The notes beneath the pieces are model-generated. The model worked only from the letters and a program-made list of their open reading frames with translations, did no database searches and was not told where the DNA came from. DNA of 64,000 nucleotides from Gammaproteobacteria bacterium (GTDB taxonomy: Bacteria; Pseudomonadota; Gammaproteobacteria; Ga0077536): the NCBI GenBank assembly GCA_016191285.1, contig JACPPA010000053.1:1-64000 (forward strand), in the 5' to 3' direction. Positions 3,963 to 14,035 of this stretch are shown piece after piece (position 1 is the first letter of the stretch; each line of letters opens with the position of its first letter). The translations under genes and the position numbers were made by a program.

Positions 3963-4757
3963 ATGGCGTATGAAACCATCTCAGTAACTCACGATGGCGC
4001 GATCGATTGGCTGTGCTTGAACCGCCCTGAGCGGCTCAACACGATCAATCCCCGCATGTGCGACGAGTTGCAAGACTATTTCGGCGGCTTACAAACTCGT
4101 CATGCGACGCGCGTGGTGATGCTGCGCGGCGCCGGTCGCGCGTTTTGTGCGGGCTATGATCTAAAGGACGCGGATCGCGTTAGCGCAGGTCCGATCATCG
4201 GCATGAACGTGCAGCGCCAAGTTAGTGAGGTATTCATGCGCATGCGGCGCTGTCCGCAACCGATCATTTGCCTTGCACATGGCGCGACCACGGGCGGTGG
4301 CTTCGCGTTTGCGCTGGCGAGTGATGTCCGCGTGGTGGCGCGCGATGTCCGAATGAATGTCGCGATGATTAAAGTGGGACTCACCGGCTGCGATGTAGGG
4401 ATCAGCTATTTTCTGCCGCGCGCCGTGGGGCAATCGATTGCCGCGGAACTCATGATGACGGGTCGCTTTATCGGCGCCGAGCGCGCGCTGGCGGTGGGTT
4501 TGGTGTCGGAAGTCGTCGACCTCGACGGACTCGAAGCCGCGGGCCGCGCGCTGGCGGACGACATGTTGAAGACTTCGCCGATGGGCTTGCGGCTGACCAA
4601 GGAGGGTTTGCGCCTCGCCGTCGATGCGCCTAGCCTCGAAGCCGCGGCGGCGCTCGAAGATCGCGGCCAGATTCTGTGCGCGAGCGCAGGGTTTTTCGAA
4701 GAGGGAATTGCCGCGTTTCGCGAAGGGCGGGCGCCGAACTACGCCGACGAATTGTGA
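3963..4757 (+). CDS. Enoyl-CoA hydratase/isomerase family protein
   Basis: This 264-aa crotonase-fold protein has the oxyanion-hole regions GRAFCAGYDLKD and HGATTGGGFAFALASDVRV. The usual second catalytic Glu region reads MIKVGLTGCDVG. It lies directly upstream of BadH-like and BadI-like genes on the same strand (51-bp and 70-bp gaps), so it may hydrate a cyclic enoyl-CoA in the same pathway, the position BadK holds in Rhodopseudomonas palustris. That role is inferred from context; the sequence alone supports only the crotonase family. Confidence 0.85.
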   Translation: MAYETISVTHDGAIDWLCLNRPERLNTINPRMCDELQDYFGGLQTRHATRVVMLRGAGRAFCAGYDLKDADRVSAGPIIGMNVQRQVSEVFMRMRRCPQPIICLAHGATTGGGFAFALASDVRVVARDVRMNVAMIKVGLTGCDVGISYFLPRAVGQSIAAELMMTGRFIGAERALAVGLVSEVVDLDGLEAAGRALADDMLKTSPMGLRLTKEGLRLAVDAPSLEAAAALEDRGQILCASAGFFEEGIAAFREGRAPNYADEL

Positions 4758-4807
4758 TGCTTACGTCACCAAGGTTCTTTATTAATCAACACGCAGGATA
4801 ATTCATC

Positions 4808-5605
4808 GTGGATCTCCAACTTAAAGATAAATCTGTAATCGTTACCGGCGCGGGCTCGAATATCGGGCGTGCCATCACGCTTGGTTTCGCGCGGGAAGGC
4901 GCCAAAATCACGCTCGCCGACATCGACGCCAAACAAGCCGATGCGGTTGCCACTCAGGCACGAGCCATCGGTGCGCCGAGCACGGAAGTCGTGCGCTGCG
5001 ATGTGACGCAACTCGATCAGGTCCAGGCGATGTTCAAGCGCGCCGTCGAGCGCCACGGCACGGTTGATGTGCTCGTCAATAACGTCGGTTGGGATCAGCT
5101 CATGTTCTTTGCGCAAACCACGCCGGAGCTGTGGCAGAAGATTATCCAGATCAATTTTGTCGGCATGTTGAATTGCACGCACACCGCGCTCGGGATCATG
5201 GCGTCGAAAAATAGTGGCGCTATTGTCTCGATCAGCTCGGACGCCAGTCGCCAGGGAGAACCACGCGAGGCGGTTTACGGCGGCATGAAGGCGGGCATCA
5301 ACAGCTTCATGAAAACCATCGCCAAGGAAAACGGCCGCAATGGGATTCGCTGCAATGTGGTATGTCCTGGTGTCACGATTCCAGAAGACGATGAAGAGGT
5401 CGGTGCCAACAGCATGTGGGTTAACAAAGACACCATGTTCACGGCTGAGCAATTGGCCGCGATTGCCAAAGCGCTGCCGCTTAAAAAAGTCGGCCGTCCG
5501 CGCGACATCGCCAACGCCGTGGTATTTCTCGCCTCCGACGCAGTTGCCGGTCATGTCACCGGCCAAGTATTGAGTGTCAGCGGCGGCTACAGCATGGTTG
5601 GATGA
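4808..5605 (+). CDS. SDR oxidoreductase, BadH-like hydroxyacyl-CoA dehydrogenase
   Basis: This classical short-chain dehydrogenase (265 aa) has the cofactor motif TGAGSNIGRA (13-22), NNVG at 91-94, catalytic Ser143/144, Tyr157 and Lys161 (YGGMK), and a C-terminal LSVSGGYSMVG. D38 after the second strand favours NAD. The sequence resembles 2-hydroxycyclohexanecarboxyl-CoA dehydrogenase (BadH), and the next gene is a clear BadI relative, the order found in cyclohexanecarboxylate degradation. The start is a GTG preceded by AGGA. General SDR function is firm; the BadH assignment rests partly on context. Confidence 0.78.
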   Translation: MDLQLKDKSVIVTGAGSNIGRAITLGFAREGAKITLADIDAKQADAVATQARAIGAPSTEVVRCDVTQLDQVQAMFKRAVERHGTVDVLVNNVGWDQLMFFAQTTPELWQKIIQINFVGMLNCTHTALGIMASKNSGAIVSISSDASRQGEPREAVYGGMKAGINSFMKTIAKENGRNGIRCNVVCPGVTIPEDDEEVGANSMWVNKDTMFTAEQLAAIAKALPLKKVGRPRDIANAVVFLASDAVAGHVTGQVLSVSGGYSMVG

Positions 5606-5674
5606 GCGCCACCTCGATTCCAAATTTCATCGTTGCGCCAGGTTTCATTGCAAAAATCCCAGGAGAGTTCGTTC

Positions 5675-6472
5675 ATGAGTACGTATGAAGACATTATTTT
5701 AACCCGCGAAGGACGCACCGCCACGGTGTCCATCAACCGACCCAAAAAGTACAACGCCTTTCGTCCGCGCACGGTGGTTGAATTGCTCGATGCATTTTTG
5801 AAAGTCGGGTGGGATAAGGACATCGGTTCGATTGTATTAACCGGCGCTGGCGAGAAAGCTTTTTGCACCGGCGGCGATCAATCCGATCATGCCGGCGGAC
5901 AGTATGGCGATAACGACGCGCGCGGTACGGTCGGCATGCCGATCGAAGAATTCCATTCAGTGCTCCGCGATGTGCCGAAGCCGGTGATCGCGAAAGTTCG
6001 CGGCTTTGCGATCGGTGGCGGTAATGTGCTCGCTACTTTGTGCGATTTAACCATCGCCGCCGAGAATGCAGTGTTTGGCCAGGTGGGACCCAAGATGGGA
6101 TCGGTCGATCCCGGCTTCGGTACGGCGTATCTCGCGCGGGTGGTGGGGGAGAAGAAGGCGCGGGAAATTTGGTATATGTGCAAGCGCTATTCGGCGGCGG
6201 AAGCGCTGGCGATGGGTCTCGTCAATGCGGTGGTGCCGGACGATCGCCTGGACGCCGAAGTCACGGCCTGGTGCGATGAACTGAACAAGCGCAGCCCCAC
6301 CGCGATTGCGCTCGCCAAGAAGAGCTTCAATGCCGATACCGAATCCATCCGCGGCATGGGTGGTGTAGCGATGCAGGCGTTGCGGCTCTATTACAACACT
6401 GAAGAATCGCAGGAAGGCGTGAAGGCGCTCAATGAAAAGCGCGAGCCGGACTTCATGAAGTATTACAAATAA
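5675..6472 (+). CDS. BadI-like 2-ketocyclohexanecarboxyl-CoA hydrolase
   Basis: This 265-aa crotonase-superfamily protein of the MenB/BadI branch cleaves a cyclic beta-keto acyl-CoA to a dicarboxyl-CoA (pimeloyl-CoA in the known pathway). Hallmarks recalled from BadI are AFCTGGDQS, GRGFAIGGGNVLATLCDL-like spacing, GQVGPKMGSVDPGFG, KAREIWYMCKRY, and the C-terminal EGVKALNEKREPDF. The start at 5675 is supported by AGGAG at 5661-5665; a longer frame to 5633 is not. It follows the BadH-like gene and completes an alicyclic ring-opening pair. The true ring substrate could be a substituted or terpenoid ring. Confidence 0.82.
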   Translation: MSTYEDIILTREGRTATVSINRPKKYNAFRPRTVVELLDAFLKVGWDKDIGSIVLTGAGEKAFCTGGDQSDHAGGQYGDNDARGTVGMPIEEFHSVLRDVPKPVIAKVRGFAIGGGNVLATLCDLTIAAENAVFGQVGPKMGSVDPGFGTAYLARVVGEKKAREIWYMCKRYSAAEALAMGLVNAVVPDDRLDAEVTAWCDELNKRSPTAIALAKKSFNADTESIRGMGGVAMQALRLYYNTEESQEGVKALNEKREPDFMKYYK

Positions 6473-6475
6473 TGG

Positions 6476-6505
6476 TGAAGATTCGCGGATAAATCCGCTC
6501 CCATG
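6476..6505. repeat. REP half-element
   Basis: GATTCGCGGATAAATCCGCT followed by CCCATG is one arm of the REP family found throughout the window (complement of the GGGAGCGG-TTTATCCGCGAATC form), immediately after the badI-like stop codon. Confidence 0.7.
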
Positions 6506-6549
6506 GGCGCTCGGCAACTTGTCTTATGGAAGCCTTGTGGAAGTCGCTT

Positions 6550-6713
6550 TAGGGAACCTCTGAATAAGTCCATCCTGGACTTATTCAGAGTACGGGAAGC
6601 AAAAAGTATGATTTTTGCTTCCCTTCATTTTCAATGGTTTGAAACCATCGAAAATGGCGGCACCTCCTGTGCCGCGGGAAGCTCTGCCTTTTGCAGAGCT
6701 TCCTTAGCGACGA
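6550..6713. repeat. Composite multi-hairpin repeat element
   Basis: Five consecutive hairpins occur: CTCTGAATAAGTCC/GGACTTATTCAGAG (6558-6590), GGGAAGCAAAAA/TTTTTGCTTCCC (6594-6623), an ATGGTTT/AAACCAT hairpin (about 6627-6655), GCGGCAC/GTGCCGC and GGAAGCTCTGC/GCAGAGCTTCC. Modules one, four and five recur in reverse order and orientation at 48560-48651. It is therefore a dispersed modular element and not a gene. Confidence 0.75.
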
Positions 6714-6747: not shown

Positions 6748-6966
6748 ATGAAAATTCGCATCGAATATTGCATGCAGTGAAACTACGAACCCGCCGCTCT
6801 CCGTGCGAGAGCGAGATTGCAAAGCCACGGCACACACGAAATCGAACTGGTGCCGGGATCAGGTGGGGTGTTTGAAGTGAGTGTTAATGGCGTCGCTCGC
6901 TTCTCGAAACGAGCGCTTGGACGCTTTCCAACCGATCCAGAAATCGATTCCTGGGTTAAGTCCTAG
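6748..6966 (+). CDS. SelW/Rdx-family selenoprotein with in-frame UGA (Sec11)
   Basis: Reading through TGA at 6778-6780 gives 72 residues: MKIRIEYCMQ-U-NYEPAALRAR..., then FEVSVNGVARFSKRALGRFP and a terminal DSWVKS. This is the compact thioredoxin-like SelW/SelT/SelH (Rdx) fold: beta strand, C-x-x-U redox motif (C8, U11), NYxP-A helix, G-x-FEV-V-x-G strand, and SK-x2-G-x-FP. The TGA is exactly where selenocysteine sits in SelW. AGGAG at 6734-6738 is spaced 9 nt from the ATG. A 7-bp hairpin with a CGTGC loop follows the TGA at SECIS-like distance. A pseudogene is unlikely, because the rest of the frame is intact and the stop falls precisely at U. It is presumed to be a redox protein; its partner is unknown. 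Decoding needs SelABCD, not seen in this window. Confidence 0.88.
6781..6813 (+). promoter_or_regulatory. Candidate bacterial SECIS hairpin of the SelW-like gene
   Basis: A 7-bp stem CGCTCTC (6795-6801) pairs with GAGAGCG (6807-6813) around the pentaloop CGTGC (6802-6806). The loop G at 6803 has 22 nt between it and the TGA, and the GU in the loop fits the bacterial SECIS pattern recognised by SelB (stem 4-16 bp, G among the first loop bases). The same loop recurs after the second in-frame TGA at 7466. Confidence 0.8.
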
Positions 6967-7009
6967 CGTTGTCCCGACATAAACGTCAATGAGTTGGCGC
7001 GTAGTAACC

Positions 7010-7074
7010 GTGGGAGCGGCTTTAGCCGCGAATTGGGCTTGAAGAAGAATCGAAGCTCATAGCGATTCCCACAA
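7010..7074. repeat. REP-type inverted pair
   Basis: GTGGGAGCGGCTTTAGCCGC, a short spacer, then TCGAAGCTCATAGCGATTCC and CACAA form an imperfect inverted pair of the REP family. It lies between the two selenoprotein genes. Confidence 0.75.
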
Positions 7075-7183
7075 AGTGCATCCAGTAACAGGTAAAGTAT
7101 GAACGCTCGTACGGGCCCGCACATTGGCGGCGCGAAGTACGCTGGTTACCCAGTCTTAAATGCAAAATTGCGAGGAGTTCGCG

Positions 7184-7711
7184 ATGAATGTTCAATATCA
7201 TGATCCCCGTGCCGCGCCACTAAAACCTCCTGAACCTTATGTGCTCAGTGCGGACTTGTCGCAGCCCGTGACGATTGGATTACTCGCGAACGGTTTCCCC
7301 GATTCAGTGGCCTTTCTCGAAGCGCTCGAGCAAGCGCTAGCGCCGGTCTTGCCGCGCGCCCGCTTTCGACATTACAACAAAGGCAATCCCTCGATCCGCG
7401 TCACCGAGTCCCTGCTCGCGACGATCGCGGGCGAATGCGCGGTGGTTGCCACCGCCTACGGTCACTGAGGCAGCTGCACTTCCGGCACCGTGCGTGACGG
7501 CATTGCAATCGCCAGACGAGGGTTACCGGCAGTGACGTTCGTGACCGACGATTTCTGGCCGCAGGGTGATTTCGTCGCCCAGGCGGAAGGCATGCCGACG
7601 ATTCCGCGCGTGCGCCTGCCGCATCCCGTCGCCGGCATTGGCAAAGTCGCGATGGCCGAACTCGCCCGCGATATTCGAGACGAGGTGCTCGCGCGCTTCG
7701 CGCGGTCATGA
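7184..7711 (+). CDS. UGSC-family selenoprotein with in-frame UGA (Sec95)
   Basis: The frame from ATG 7184 (GAGGAG at 7172-7177) runs to TGA 7466-7468 and continues without another stop to 7711, giving 175 residues. Around the TGA it reads VVATAYGH-U-GSCTSGTVRDG, the signature of the UGSC family, whose members carry Sec or Cys before GSCTS. Downstream, IAIARRGLPAVTFVTDDF and GMPTIPRVRLPHPVAGIG also fit. There is no Met start for the downstream half, so the two halves are one gene. A hairpin with a CGTGC loop follows the TGA. Sec95 and C98 form a U-x-x-C redox pair. The 3' end overlaps the next start (ATGA). The biochemical role of the family is not known to me. Confidence 0.87.
7469..7500 (+). 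promoter_or_regulatory. Candidate bacterial SECIS hairpin of the UGSC gene
   Basis: The stem CCG-G-CAC (7482-7488) pairs with GTG-A-CGG (7494-7500), six pairs with one G-A mismatch, around the pentaloop CGTGC (7489-7493). The loop G at 7490 has 21 nt between it and the TGA. The loop sequence is identical to, and its distance within one base of, the hairpin after the SelW-like TGA. Confidence 0.75.
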
Positions 7712-8784
7712 ACGCGCGTGCGGAGGCCTTGCTAAGCGCGGCTGACGAAGAAGCCGCACTCGAACTATTACACAACGCGCGTTGCACGGATGGCCTGCCG
7801 GTCGTGATCCCCACACCGGCGCGCGTCGCCCGCATGGTGCTCGCGAGCGGCCTGGACGGCGATATCGTGTTGGGTGAGATGGGGCCGCTCGGCGGCGCGG
7901 CCACGGTCGAAAAAATCGCGGTGGCGGCAGTCATGGCGGGTTGCTTACCCGATCACCTGCCGGTGGTGATCGCGGCGGTGCGCGCGATCTGTCAGCCCGC
8001 GTTTGATCTCTCCGAAGTGCAAGCGACTACGCACTGCATCGCGCCGCTCATCATCGTCAACGGTCCAGCCCGGCAGGCCTGCGGTGGGCTGGCCTCGGGA
8101 TTTGGTGTCATGGGCCCGGGTCATCGCGCGAACGCCTCGATTGGTCGTGCGCTCCGACTCGCCATGTTGAACATCGGAGGGGCACGGCCCGGCGAATCGG
8201 ATATGGCATTGCACGGCTCGCCCGCCAAGTTCACATTTTGTATTGCGGAGGACGAAGAGGCCTCACCGTTTCCACCGTTCCATACCAGTCTCGGTTATCG
8301 CGCGGAGCAGAGCGTGGTCACCGTCATCGGCGTGGAAGGGCCGCACTCTACTTTTTTCACCGGTGACGCGGATGATCCGAAGAGCGCCGAGCGATTATTG
8401 AACACGCTCGCCGCCGTGATCGCGAACCCCGGCAGCAATAACTCGCATCTCGGTGGCACCGCGGCGGTAACCGTCGTGCTCAATCCGGATCATGCAAGAG
8501 TGCTGGCGAGCGCGGGTTTCACGCGCGAGCCTATTCAACGAGAATTGAGCGCGCGCGCAGTGACGTCGCGCGACACGCTTGCTGCACTTAACACGAAAAT
8601 GTTGATTGGCCAGGAAGCATTGATTTCAGCGGTGCGCAATCCCCAAAACATCCACCTGCTGACCGCGGGTGGCTCTGGGCTCTATACGATGATCATGCCG
8701 TCATGGTGCGCGGGACCACACGGTAATATCGCCGTCCATCAGGAGATAGAAATAAACCATGTGTGCGCGATGCCAGCGCTTTAG
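7708..8784 (+). CDS. Conserved protein translationally coupled to the UGSC selenoprotein
   Basis: This 358-aa cytoplasmic protein shows no signal peptide or transmembrane segment. Its ATG overlaps the stop of the UGSC gene by 4 bp (ATGA), a strong sign of co-translation and a shared role. Visible features are a Gly-rich GPARQACGGLASGFGVMGPG segment, IGGARPGESDMALHG, NPGSNNSHLGGTAAVTVVLNP, and a Cys-containing C-terminus (SWCAGPHG, HVCAMPAL). I do not recognise a characterised enzyme family. The pairing suggests a two-component enzyme in which the UGSC protein supplies the redox centre; that is inference. Confidence 0.7.
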   Translation: MNARAEALLSAADEEAALELLHNARCTDGLPVVIPTPARVARMVLASGLDGDIVLGEMGPLGGAATVEKIAVAAVMAGCLPDHLPVVIAAVRAICQPAFDLSEVQATTHCIAPLIIVNGPARQACGGLASGFGVMGPGHRANASIGRALRLAMLNIGGARPGESDMALHGSPAKFTFCIAEDEEASPFPPFHTSLGYRAEQSVVTVIGVEGPHSTFFTGDADDPKSAERLLNTLAAVIANPGSNNSHLGGTAAVTVVLNPDHARVLASAGFTREPIQRELSARAVTSRDTLAALNTKMLIGQEALISAVRNPQNIHLLTAGGSGLYTMIMPSWCAGPHGNIAVHQEIEINHVCAMPAL

Positions 8785-12760: not shown

Positions 12761-14035
12761 ATGTGGTCATTTGAAACCGATCCGGATTTTCAACAACAAC
12801 TCGACTGGATTGATGACTTCGTCAAGCGCGAAGTCGAACCGCTCGATCATCTATTGGGAAGCCAGTGGAATATCGGCGATCCAAATTTCAAACGCCTAGT
12901 GCGACCCTTGCAAGCCAAGGTTCGCGCACGTGGCCTTTGGGCGTGTCACCTCGGGCCGGAGCTTGGTGGCAAGGGCTACGGCCAGGTGAAACTCGCGCTA
13001 ATGAACGAACTTTTTGGCCGTGCGCGCTTTGGGCCGATCGTCTTTGGCGCACAAGCGCCAGATACCGGGAACGCGGAAATTCTGGCCCATTACGGCACAC
13101 CCGAGCAGAAAAAGCGCTTTCTTGAGCCCTTGTTGGCCAATGAAATCGTCTCCTGTTTCTCGATGACCGAACCACAGGGCGGCGCCGATCCACTGGTCTT
13201 TAAGACCACTGCGGTGCAAGACGGCGAGCATTGGGTGATCGACGGCGAGAAGTGGTTTTCGTCGAACGCGCGCTACGCCGCCTTTTTTATCGTCATGGCA
13301 GTGACTGATCCGGACGCGGCGCCGTATCGACGGATGTCGATGTTCATCGTGCCGGCCGACGCCCCGGGCGTTGAAATTAAACGCAACCTGACATTCTACG
13401 GGGAGCCCGAGGCAACCCACGCCTATATGCGTTACCACCAAGTGCGAGTTCCGGGTGAGAATTTACTCGGCGCGCGCGGCGACGCCTTCGTGGTGGCGCA
13501 AACCCGCCTCGGCGGTGGCCGACTGCACCATGCCATGCGCACCGTGGCGCAAGCGCGGCGCGCGCTCGAGATGATGTGTAAACGCGCGGTGTCGCGCGTG
13601 ACCCAGGGTGAAATCCTCGGGCGCAAACAAATGGTCCAAGAAAAGATCGCCGATTCGTGGGTGCAACTGCGGCAATTTAGACTGCTGGTATTGGAAACCG
13701 CGTGGCTGATCGACAAACAGCACGACTACAAAGCCGTGCGCAAGAATATCGCCGCGGTCAAGGCCGTGATGCCACAGGTGTTGCATGACATCGCGGCGCG
13801 TGCGCTGCATCTCCACGGCTCGCTTGGGATCTCGACCGAGATGCCGTTCGCCGATTGGGTCATGAATTCCTTCCATGTGGGGCTCGCCGACGGTCCGACC
13901 GAAGTGCACAAGGTCACCGTAGCGCGCGAAGTGTTGAAAGATTTCGCGCCGGCGGCGGATTTATTTCCCGAATATCACGGCCCAGCCGAGGCCGCGCGCG
14001 CCCATGCCCTCTACGATGATCTGATGGAAGGTTAA
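12761..14035 (+). CDS. Acyl-CoA dehydrogenase family protein
   Basis: This 424-aa FAD enzyme oxidises an acyl-CoA to the 2-enoyl-CoA. The N-terminal helical domain is followed by SCFSMTEPQGGADP and WVIDGEKWFSSNARYA, which contact FAD and substrate in the ACAD middle domain, and a C-terminal four-helix domain with LHGSLGISTEMPFADWV near the catalytic-base region and GPTEVHKVTVAREVL. It is longer and more divergent at the N-terminus than the short-chain enzymes and resembles the ACAD10/11-like or FadE-type branch. Substrate is unknown; an alicyclic or terpenoid acyl-CoA would fit the window. No ETF gene is nearby. Confidence 0.9.
   Translation: MWSFETDPDFQQQLDWIDDFVKREVEPLDHLLGSQWNIGDPNFKRLVRPLQAKVRARGLWACHLGPELGGKGYGQVKLALMNELFGRARFGPIVFGAQAPDTGNAEILAHYGTPEQKKRFLEPLLANEIVSCFSMTEPQGGADPLVFKTTAVQDGEHWVIDGEKWFSSNARYAAFFIVMAVTDPDAAPYRRMSMFIVPADAPGVEIKRNLTFYGEPEATHAYMRYHQVRVPGENLLGARGDAFVVAQTRLGGGRLHHAMRTVAQARRALEMMCKRAVSRVTQGEILGRKQMVQEKIADSWVQLRQFRLLVLETAWLIDKQHDYKAVRKNIAAVKAVMPQVLHDIAARALHLHGSLGISTEMPFADWVMNSFHVGLADGPTEVHKVTVAREVLKDFAPAADLFPEYHGPAEAARAHALYDDLMEG

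Follow-up and report, generated by a model that had tools for sequence, protein, structure and literature searches.

Does the in-frame TGA at 7466-7468 of the window, by which we mean the whole 64,000-nucleotide stretch analysed here, end a short gene, or is it read as selenocysteine (Sec) inside a longer one, and what might the product of such a gene do? An earlier note on this DNA had proposed that 7184-7711 is a single gene of the UGSC family of selenoproteins, split by this TGA at codon 95. The UGSC-containing family is already known (Pfam PF24696, NCBIfam NF041046; Zhang and Gladyshev 2007/2008, PMC2398784). In aquatic metagenomes it ranked among the most abundant families of selenoproteins, with 255 genes in GOS, and its fusion to a domain named 'Unknown_1' was reported in 2008 (PMC2398784). 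A review from 2026 counts UGSC among the selenoproteins that are largely uncharacterised (PMC13188914), and our literature search for a UGSC function found no paper. The analysis adds to the earlier note a near-obligate partner gene, a predicted fold other than thioredoxin and a weak match to GrdB/PrdB.

A TGA codon inside a UGSC-family gene

The coordinates in the earlier note proved correct. On the + strand, the frame is open from ATG 7184 to the final stop TGA at 7709-7711 (175 codons), and TGA 7466-7468, codon 95, is its sole interruption. For the Shine-Dalgarno sequence that the note had ascribed to the upstream half, there is a Shine-Dalgarno-like GAGGAG at 7172-7177 (+), 6 nt 5' of the ATG. 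A mechanical ORF caller started at the in-frame ATG 7160 and stopped at 7468, giving an ORF of 102 aa (7160-7468); by default, annotation cuts the UGSC gene after codon 94. Around the TGA the translation reads ...VATAYGH-U-GSCTSGTVRDG..., and the GH-U-GSCTS stretch, which the note took for the family signature, carries the [U/C]GSC motif in which Sec or Cys occupies one column. With the TGA read as Sec, the product matched Pfam UGSC (PF24696) with an E-value of 5e-39 and 134.6 bits (curated cut-off 25) over residues 21-172, spanning the TGA. Because this single match covers residues 21-172, both gene halves form one domain; the upstream half, which would have to be unrelated for the note's reading to fail, thus belongs to the same UGSC family. 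Against the NCBIfam equivalog NF041046 (UGSC_fam), scored with C written for Sec, the product reached 101.6 bits, below the cut-off of 125.

Standard translation ends at TGA 7466-7468, as it would if this were a real stop and the gene truncated, a pseudogene or the result of a sequencing error, with its downstream frame untranslated. Comparison with relatives speaks against such a stop at several levels. Of 58 genomes sampled around the host, 31 carried UGSC genes, with exactly one in-frame TGA in every match listed. When the window gene was aligned with 20 relatives, the TGA column was invariant across all 21 sequences, as were G96, S97, C98, S100, D105, H147 and P148. Constraint at the protein level persists past the TGA, amino-acid identity to 12 relatives being 58-74% past it versus 53-69% before it, and in the same comparison the third codon positions were far less conserved than the protein. 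Homologues with Cys in the Sec column, with which the earlier note had suggested aligning the gene, do exist: scanning 84,980 species genomes under a Cys reading brought up 35 such proteins, with the motif DCGSCTS, in Actinomycetota, Alphaproteobacteria, Gammaproteobacteria, Bacteroidota, Binatia and others. In the subgroup of the window gene, His precedes Sec (GH-U-GSCTSG), and no Cys form of this subgroup was found among the same 84,980 genomes.

A real stop is also difficult to reconcile with the full Sec machinery of the host genome (5.1 Mb). It encodes selA and selB, recognised when their operon was translated, with a tRNA-Sec, identified by Rfam and ARAGORN, immediately after them, and selD lies on the same contig (283.6 bits, cut-off 125). 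In four relatives, the UGSC gene and its partner directly adjoin selA-selB-selC, and in three of these they are co-directional.

The predicted SECIS hairpin and the SelW-like gene

A predicted bacterial SECIS hairpin lies at 7482-7500 (+), with its stem at 7482-7488/7494-7500 and the loop CGUGC at 7489-7493. It reads CCG-G-CAC / CGUGC / GUG-A-CGG, shows one G.A mismatch, and its loop starts 20 nt past the TGA. Published limits for bSECIS elements are a loop of 3-9 nt, a stem of 4-16 bp, a G in the first two loop positions, a spacing of 16-37 nt and an MFE <= -7.5 (PMC13188914). The UGSC hairpin fits this model, with a 5-nt loop, G in second place, 6 bp plus one mismatch and a spacing of 20 nt; the predicted MFE was -15.3 kcal/mol over 50 nt. 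Its stability was not above that of shuffled sequences (z 0.16 for the window gene), a point in favour of a real stop, and with z-scores of 0.16 to 1.3 stability was dropped as evidence for the SECIS of the window. Because stability is ordinary, the case for the hairpin rests on conservation, on a loop match with a neighbouring gene and on agreement with the published limits.

Conservation is most pronounced in the codon choice of the hairpin, which is nearly frozen and argues for a translated, recoded frame. Across 13 genes of the window subgroup, the eight hairpin codons (+5 to +12) showed 98% synonymous agreement versus 45-56% over the remaining codons, and a second UGSC subgroup displayed the same local peak (86-92% vs 39-50%). 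In other UGSC subgroups, the helix pairs in 95% of cells, including a swap from C-G to G-C in 9 sequences.

The loop match comes from a SelW-like (Rdx family) selenoprotein gene just upstream of UGSC, at 6748-6966 (+), with a Pfam PF10262 match (E 1.6e-15), a CMQU motif and its own TGA at 6778-6780. Its hairpin at 6795-6813 (+) repeats the CGUGC loop, and the spacing from the TGA is almost that seen in UGSC. Among the 1,814 TGA triplets in the window, such a hairpin follows two only, those of UGSC and the SelW-like gene; the pattern was defined from these two, and the count is therefore a consistency check and not an independent test. A viral scan for the SECIS of the window subgroup found nothing. 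Homologues of the SelW-like gene with one in-frame TGA occur in 16 relatives from the host's family, and the gene was rejected as a conserved neighbour of UGSC, lying on other contigs in relatives. The DNA near it holds a pair of 26-nt REP-like inverted repeats (6481-6506 and 7008-7033), a hairpin of 15 perfectly paired bp and a 12-bp stem that runs into T-rich DNA and may be a terminator (6558-6590; 6594-6623).

Recoding of UGA 7466-7468 as Sec is thus strongly supported by comparison: SelB, directed by the hairpin 20 nt downstream, would insert Sec at this codon. A real stop is already contradicted by these comparisons and seems very improbable, and we regard it as close to certain, judging from sequence, that 7184-7711 is a true selenoprotein gene from a known family. 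The central claim of the earlier note therefore stood, carried by the PF24696 match, the conserved TGA, the Cys homologues, the Sec machinery and the SECIS-like hairpin.

A partner gene next to UGSC

The stop of UGSC shares an ATGA overlap with the start of a second gene, 7708-8784 (+), which encodes 358 aa and is a near-obligate neighbour of UGSC. Its product had no match in Pfam (up to E 10), NCBIfam or PDB sequence searches and stands in annotation without a family name; UGSC and this partner showed no relationship to each other. For 56 of 57 UGSC genes (24 genomes), a same-strand partner was found within 400 bp, 35 times downstream and 21 times upstream, and the sole exception lies on a contig without any partner match. 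The partner also adjoins every one of the 35 Cys-form UGSC genes, and of 398 genomes sampled from the phylum, UGSC was present in five, the partner in those same five and no others. One relative has the two fused into one reading frame that contains one TGA. Because UGSC is almost always accompanied by this gene, we propose a two-part enzyme; the pairing and the fusion suggest that the two products probably work as one unit.

Some further arrangements were seen among the relatives. Genome G006 (2.2 Mb, 62% complete) has 13 UGSC genes, and those read are fusions to the partner, for example at locus L105, 3500-5305 (-), and also at L106 and on other contigs; one of the fusion products starts with a signal-peptide-like stretch. 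At the actinobacterial locus L074, about 2.5 kb separate a UGSC-partner pair from a second partner-like gene (289-1353, -), beside which no UGSC gene was seen.

Only Cys79 and Cys178 are conserved in at least 95% of the partners: both occur in 81 of 85 sequences and neither in the other 4, all from the genome with the UGSC-partner fusions. One partner subfamily carries a fused thioredoxin-like domain, containing CETC, at the N-terminus. Structure searches with the partner model (pLDDT 81.5) gave weak matches throughout. Class I fumarase alpha subunits were the best Foldseek match (E 2.6e-5, but TM 0.29-0.34); with a Z of about 5 and 8% identity the similarity is weak, partial and too low to establish membership. 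Cyclic amide hydrolases (Toblerone-like) followed at a likewise weak Z of 5-6.

Such faint likenesses would suit a non-redox pair, a lyase, hydratase or hydrolase that uses Sec as nucleophile or metal ligand. Class I fumarases have a three-Cys 4Fe-4S site, whereas only two Cys (79 and 178) are widely conserved in the partners, and the U-x-x-C motif of UGSC together with the fused thioredoxin domain points to redox cycling. Given also that the structural matches are weak and partial, we consider a non-redox enzyme unlikely.

Predicted fold, proposed reaction and known systems

The UGSC model (pLDDT 92.7) is a Rossmann-like alpha/beta domain of five strands, and in it Sec95 begins the helix that follows strand 3. 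Its best structure matches were flavodoxin-like and B12-binding-like (Foldseek E 2.6e-5; VIA-align Z 11.5 over 131 residues), with no thioredoxin among the matches listed by Foldseek and VIA, an absence that is not in itself decisive against that fold; a PDB sequence search gave nothing meaningful. The predicted fold is at odds with the Trx-like fold suggested for the family (PMC2398784). That suggestion, the U-x-x-C motif and the thioredoxin domain that one partner subfamily carries would fit a generic thiol/selenol oxidoreductase or peroxidase whose targets are disulfides or peroxides, with the partner merely its regulator or substrate. Besides the predicted fold, the tight one-to-one pairing tells against this, as it suggests a shared enzyme and not a stand-alone redoxin, and we hold a generic oxidoreductase to be possible but doubtful.

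A redox role as such is favoured because the U/C-x-x-C motif is invariant, being conserved in the alignments of both Sec and Cys forms, because a CETC thioredoxin-like domain is fused to some partners, and because Cys79 and Cys178 of the partner occur as a pair. The reading that we hold most likely, with a probability of roughly 55%, is a Sec-dependent reductase of two components whose recycling runs through a Sec95-Cys98 bridge and thioredoxin. The partner would hold the substrate, which is probably a small organic acid or a metabolite of that sort; the Sec95 selenolate would attack it, and the substrate would be reduced or cleaved. Sec95 and Cys98 would then form a selenenylsulfide, to be reduced by a thioredoxin-type donor, a reaction logic that would resemble that of GrdB and PrdB, the Sec subunits of glycine and D-proline reductase. 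The complex itself, its chemistry, its electron donor and its substrate class are what we infer from the data above. Some observations speak against this mechanism: the Cys79/Cys178 pair is absent from the fused forms, gene neighbours vary between lineages, the profile match to GrdB/PrdB is weak, and the fumarase-like match of the partner does not itself suggest a reductase.

The pair is flanked in the window (3963-6472 and 12761-14035) by two enoyl-CoA hydratase/isomerase genes, an SDR gene and an acyl-CoA dehydrogenase gene, a hint of acyl-CoA catabolism nearby. Recurrent neighbours of UGSC, several of them named by eye, include enoyl-CoA hydratase, SDR, CoA-transferase, dicarboxylate-carrier and beta-keto-acid-cleavage-like genes. 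Their recurrence is inconsistent; conserved neighbours beyond the partner and selABC were therefore rejected, and organic-acid metabolism is a loose hint.

When the UGSC and GrdB/PrdB profiles were compared with hhalign, the two Sec columns fell on each other and the score was 35-37; the highest score among 150 column shuffles was 26.7, and masking the motif left 31.4 in the same register. The match is weak (probability 45-63%, about 60-70 columns), and the UGSC product itself had no significant match to PF07355 (GrdB/PrdB), hmmscan listing UGSC only; a distant kinship is suggested by these profiles. GrdB/PrdB-like selenoproteins with the motif APV-U-P-x-C, reached via the GRDB profile, are found in the host's bacterial family (loci L146-L154), and it was with such proteins that the UGSC profile aligned. 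More tentatively, and with less confidence than in the reductase as such, we suggest that UGSC and its partner form an undescribed two-component selenoenzyme of Proteobacteria and scattered phyla, with a Sec subunit distantly akin to GrdB/PrdB, which may cleave a metabolite reductively, in a thioredoxin-dependent reaction, in hosts not known for Stickland-type amino-acid reduction. The near-constant partner, the fusions, a partner common to Cys and Sec forms and the likeness to GrdB/PrdB turn a catalogue entry into a probable enzyme pair that can be expressed together and assayed.

With the UGSC family as known, the family of the window gene has in common the Sec-G-S-C motif, Cys homologues and abundance in aquatic bacteria; the window gene differs in the His before Sec, in scoring below the NF041046 cut-off and in belonging to a two-gene module with a nameless partner. 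Thioredoxin-fold selenoproteins (Trx-like, Prx-like, SelW-like) resemble UGSC in a U-x-x-C type motif and a probable redox role, but differ from its predicted flavodoxin/B12-binding-like fold. In GrdB/PrdB (PF07355), Sec, U-x-x-C and the GIPT and HP stretches align with UGSC. The UGSC partner is without any Pfam match, and hence without one to the GrdE/PrdA-type subunit, and UGSC-bearing relatives also encode separate PrdB-like selenoproteins. GrdB/PrdB works with a second protein, and it is to this arrangement that we liken UGSC and its partner.
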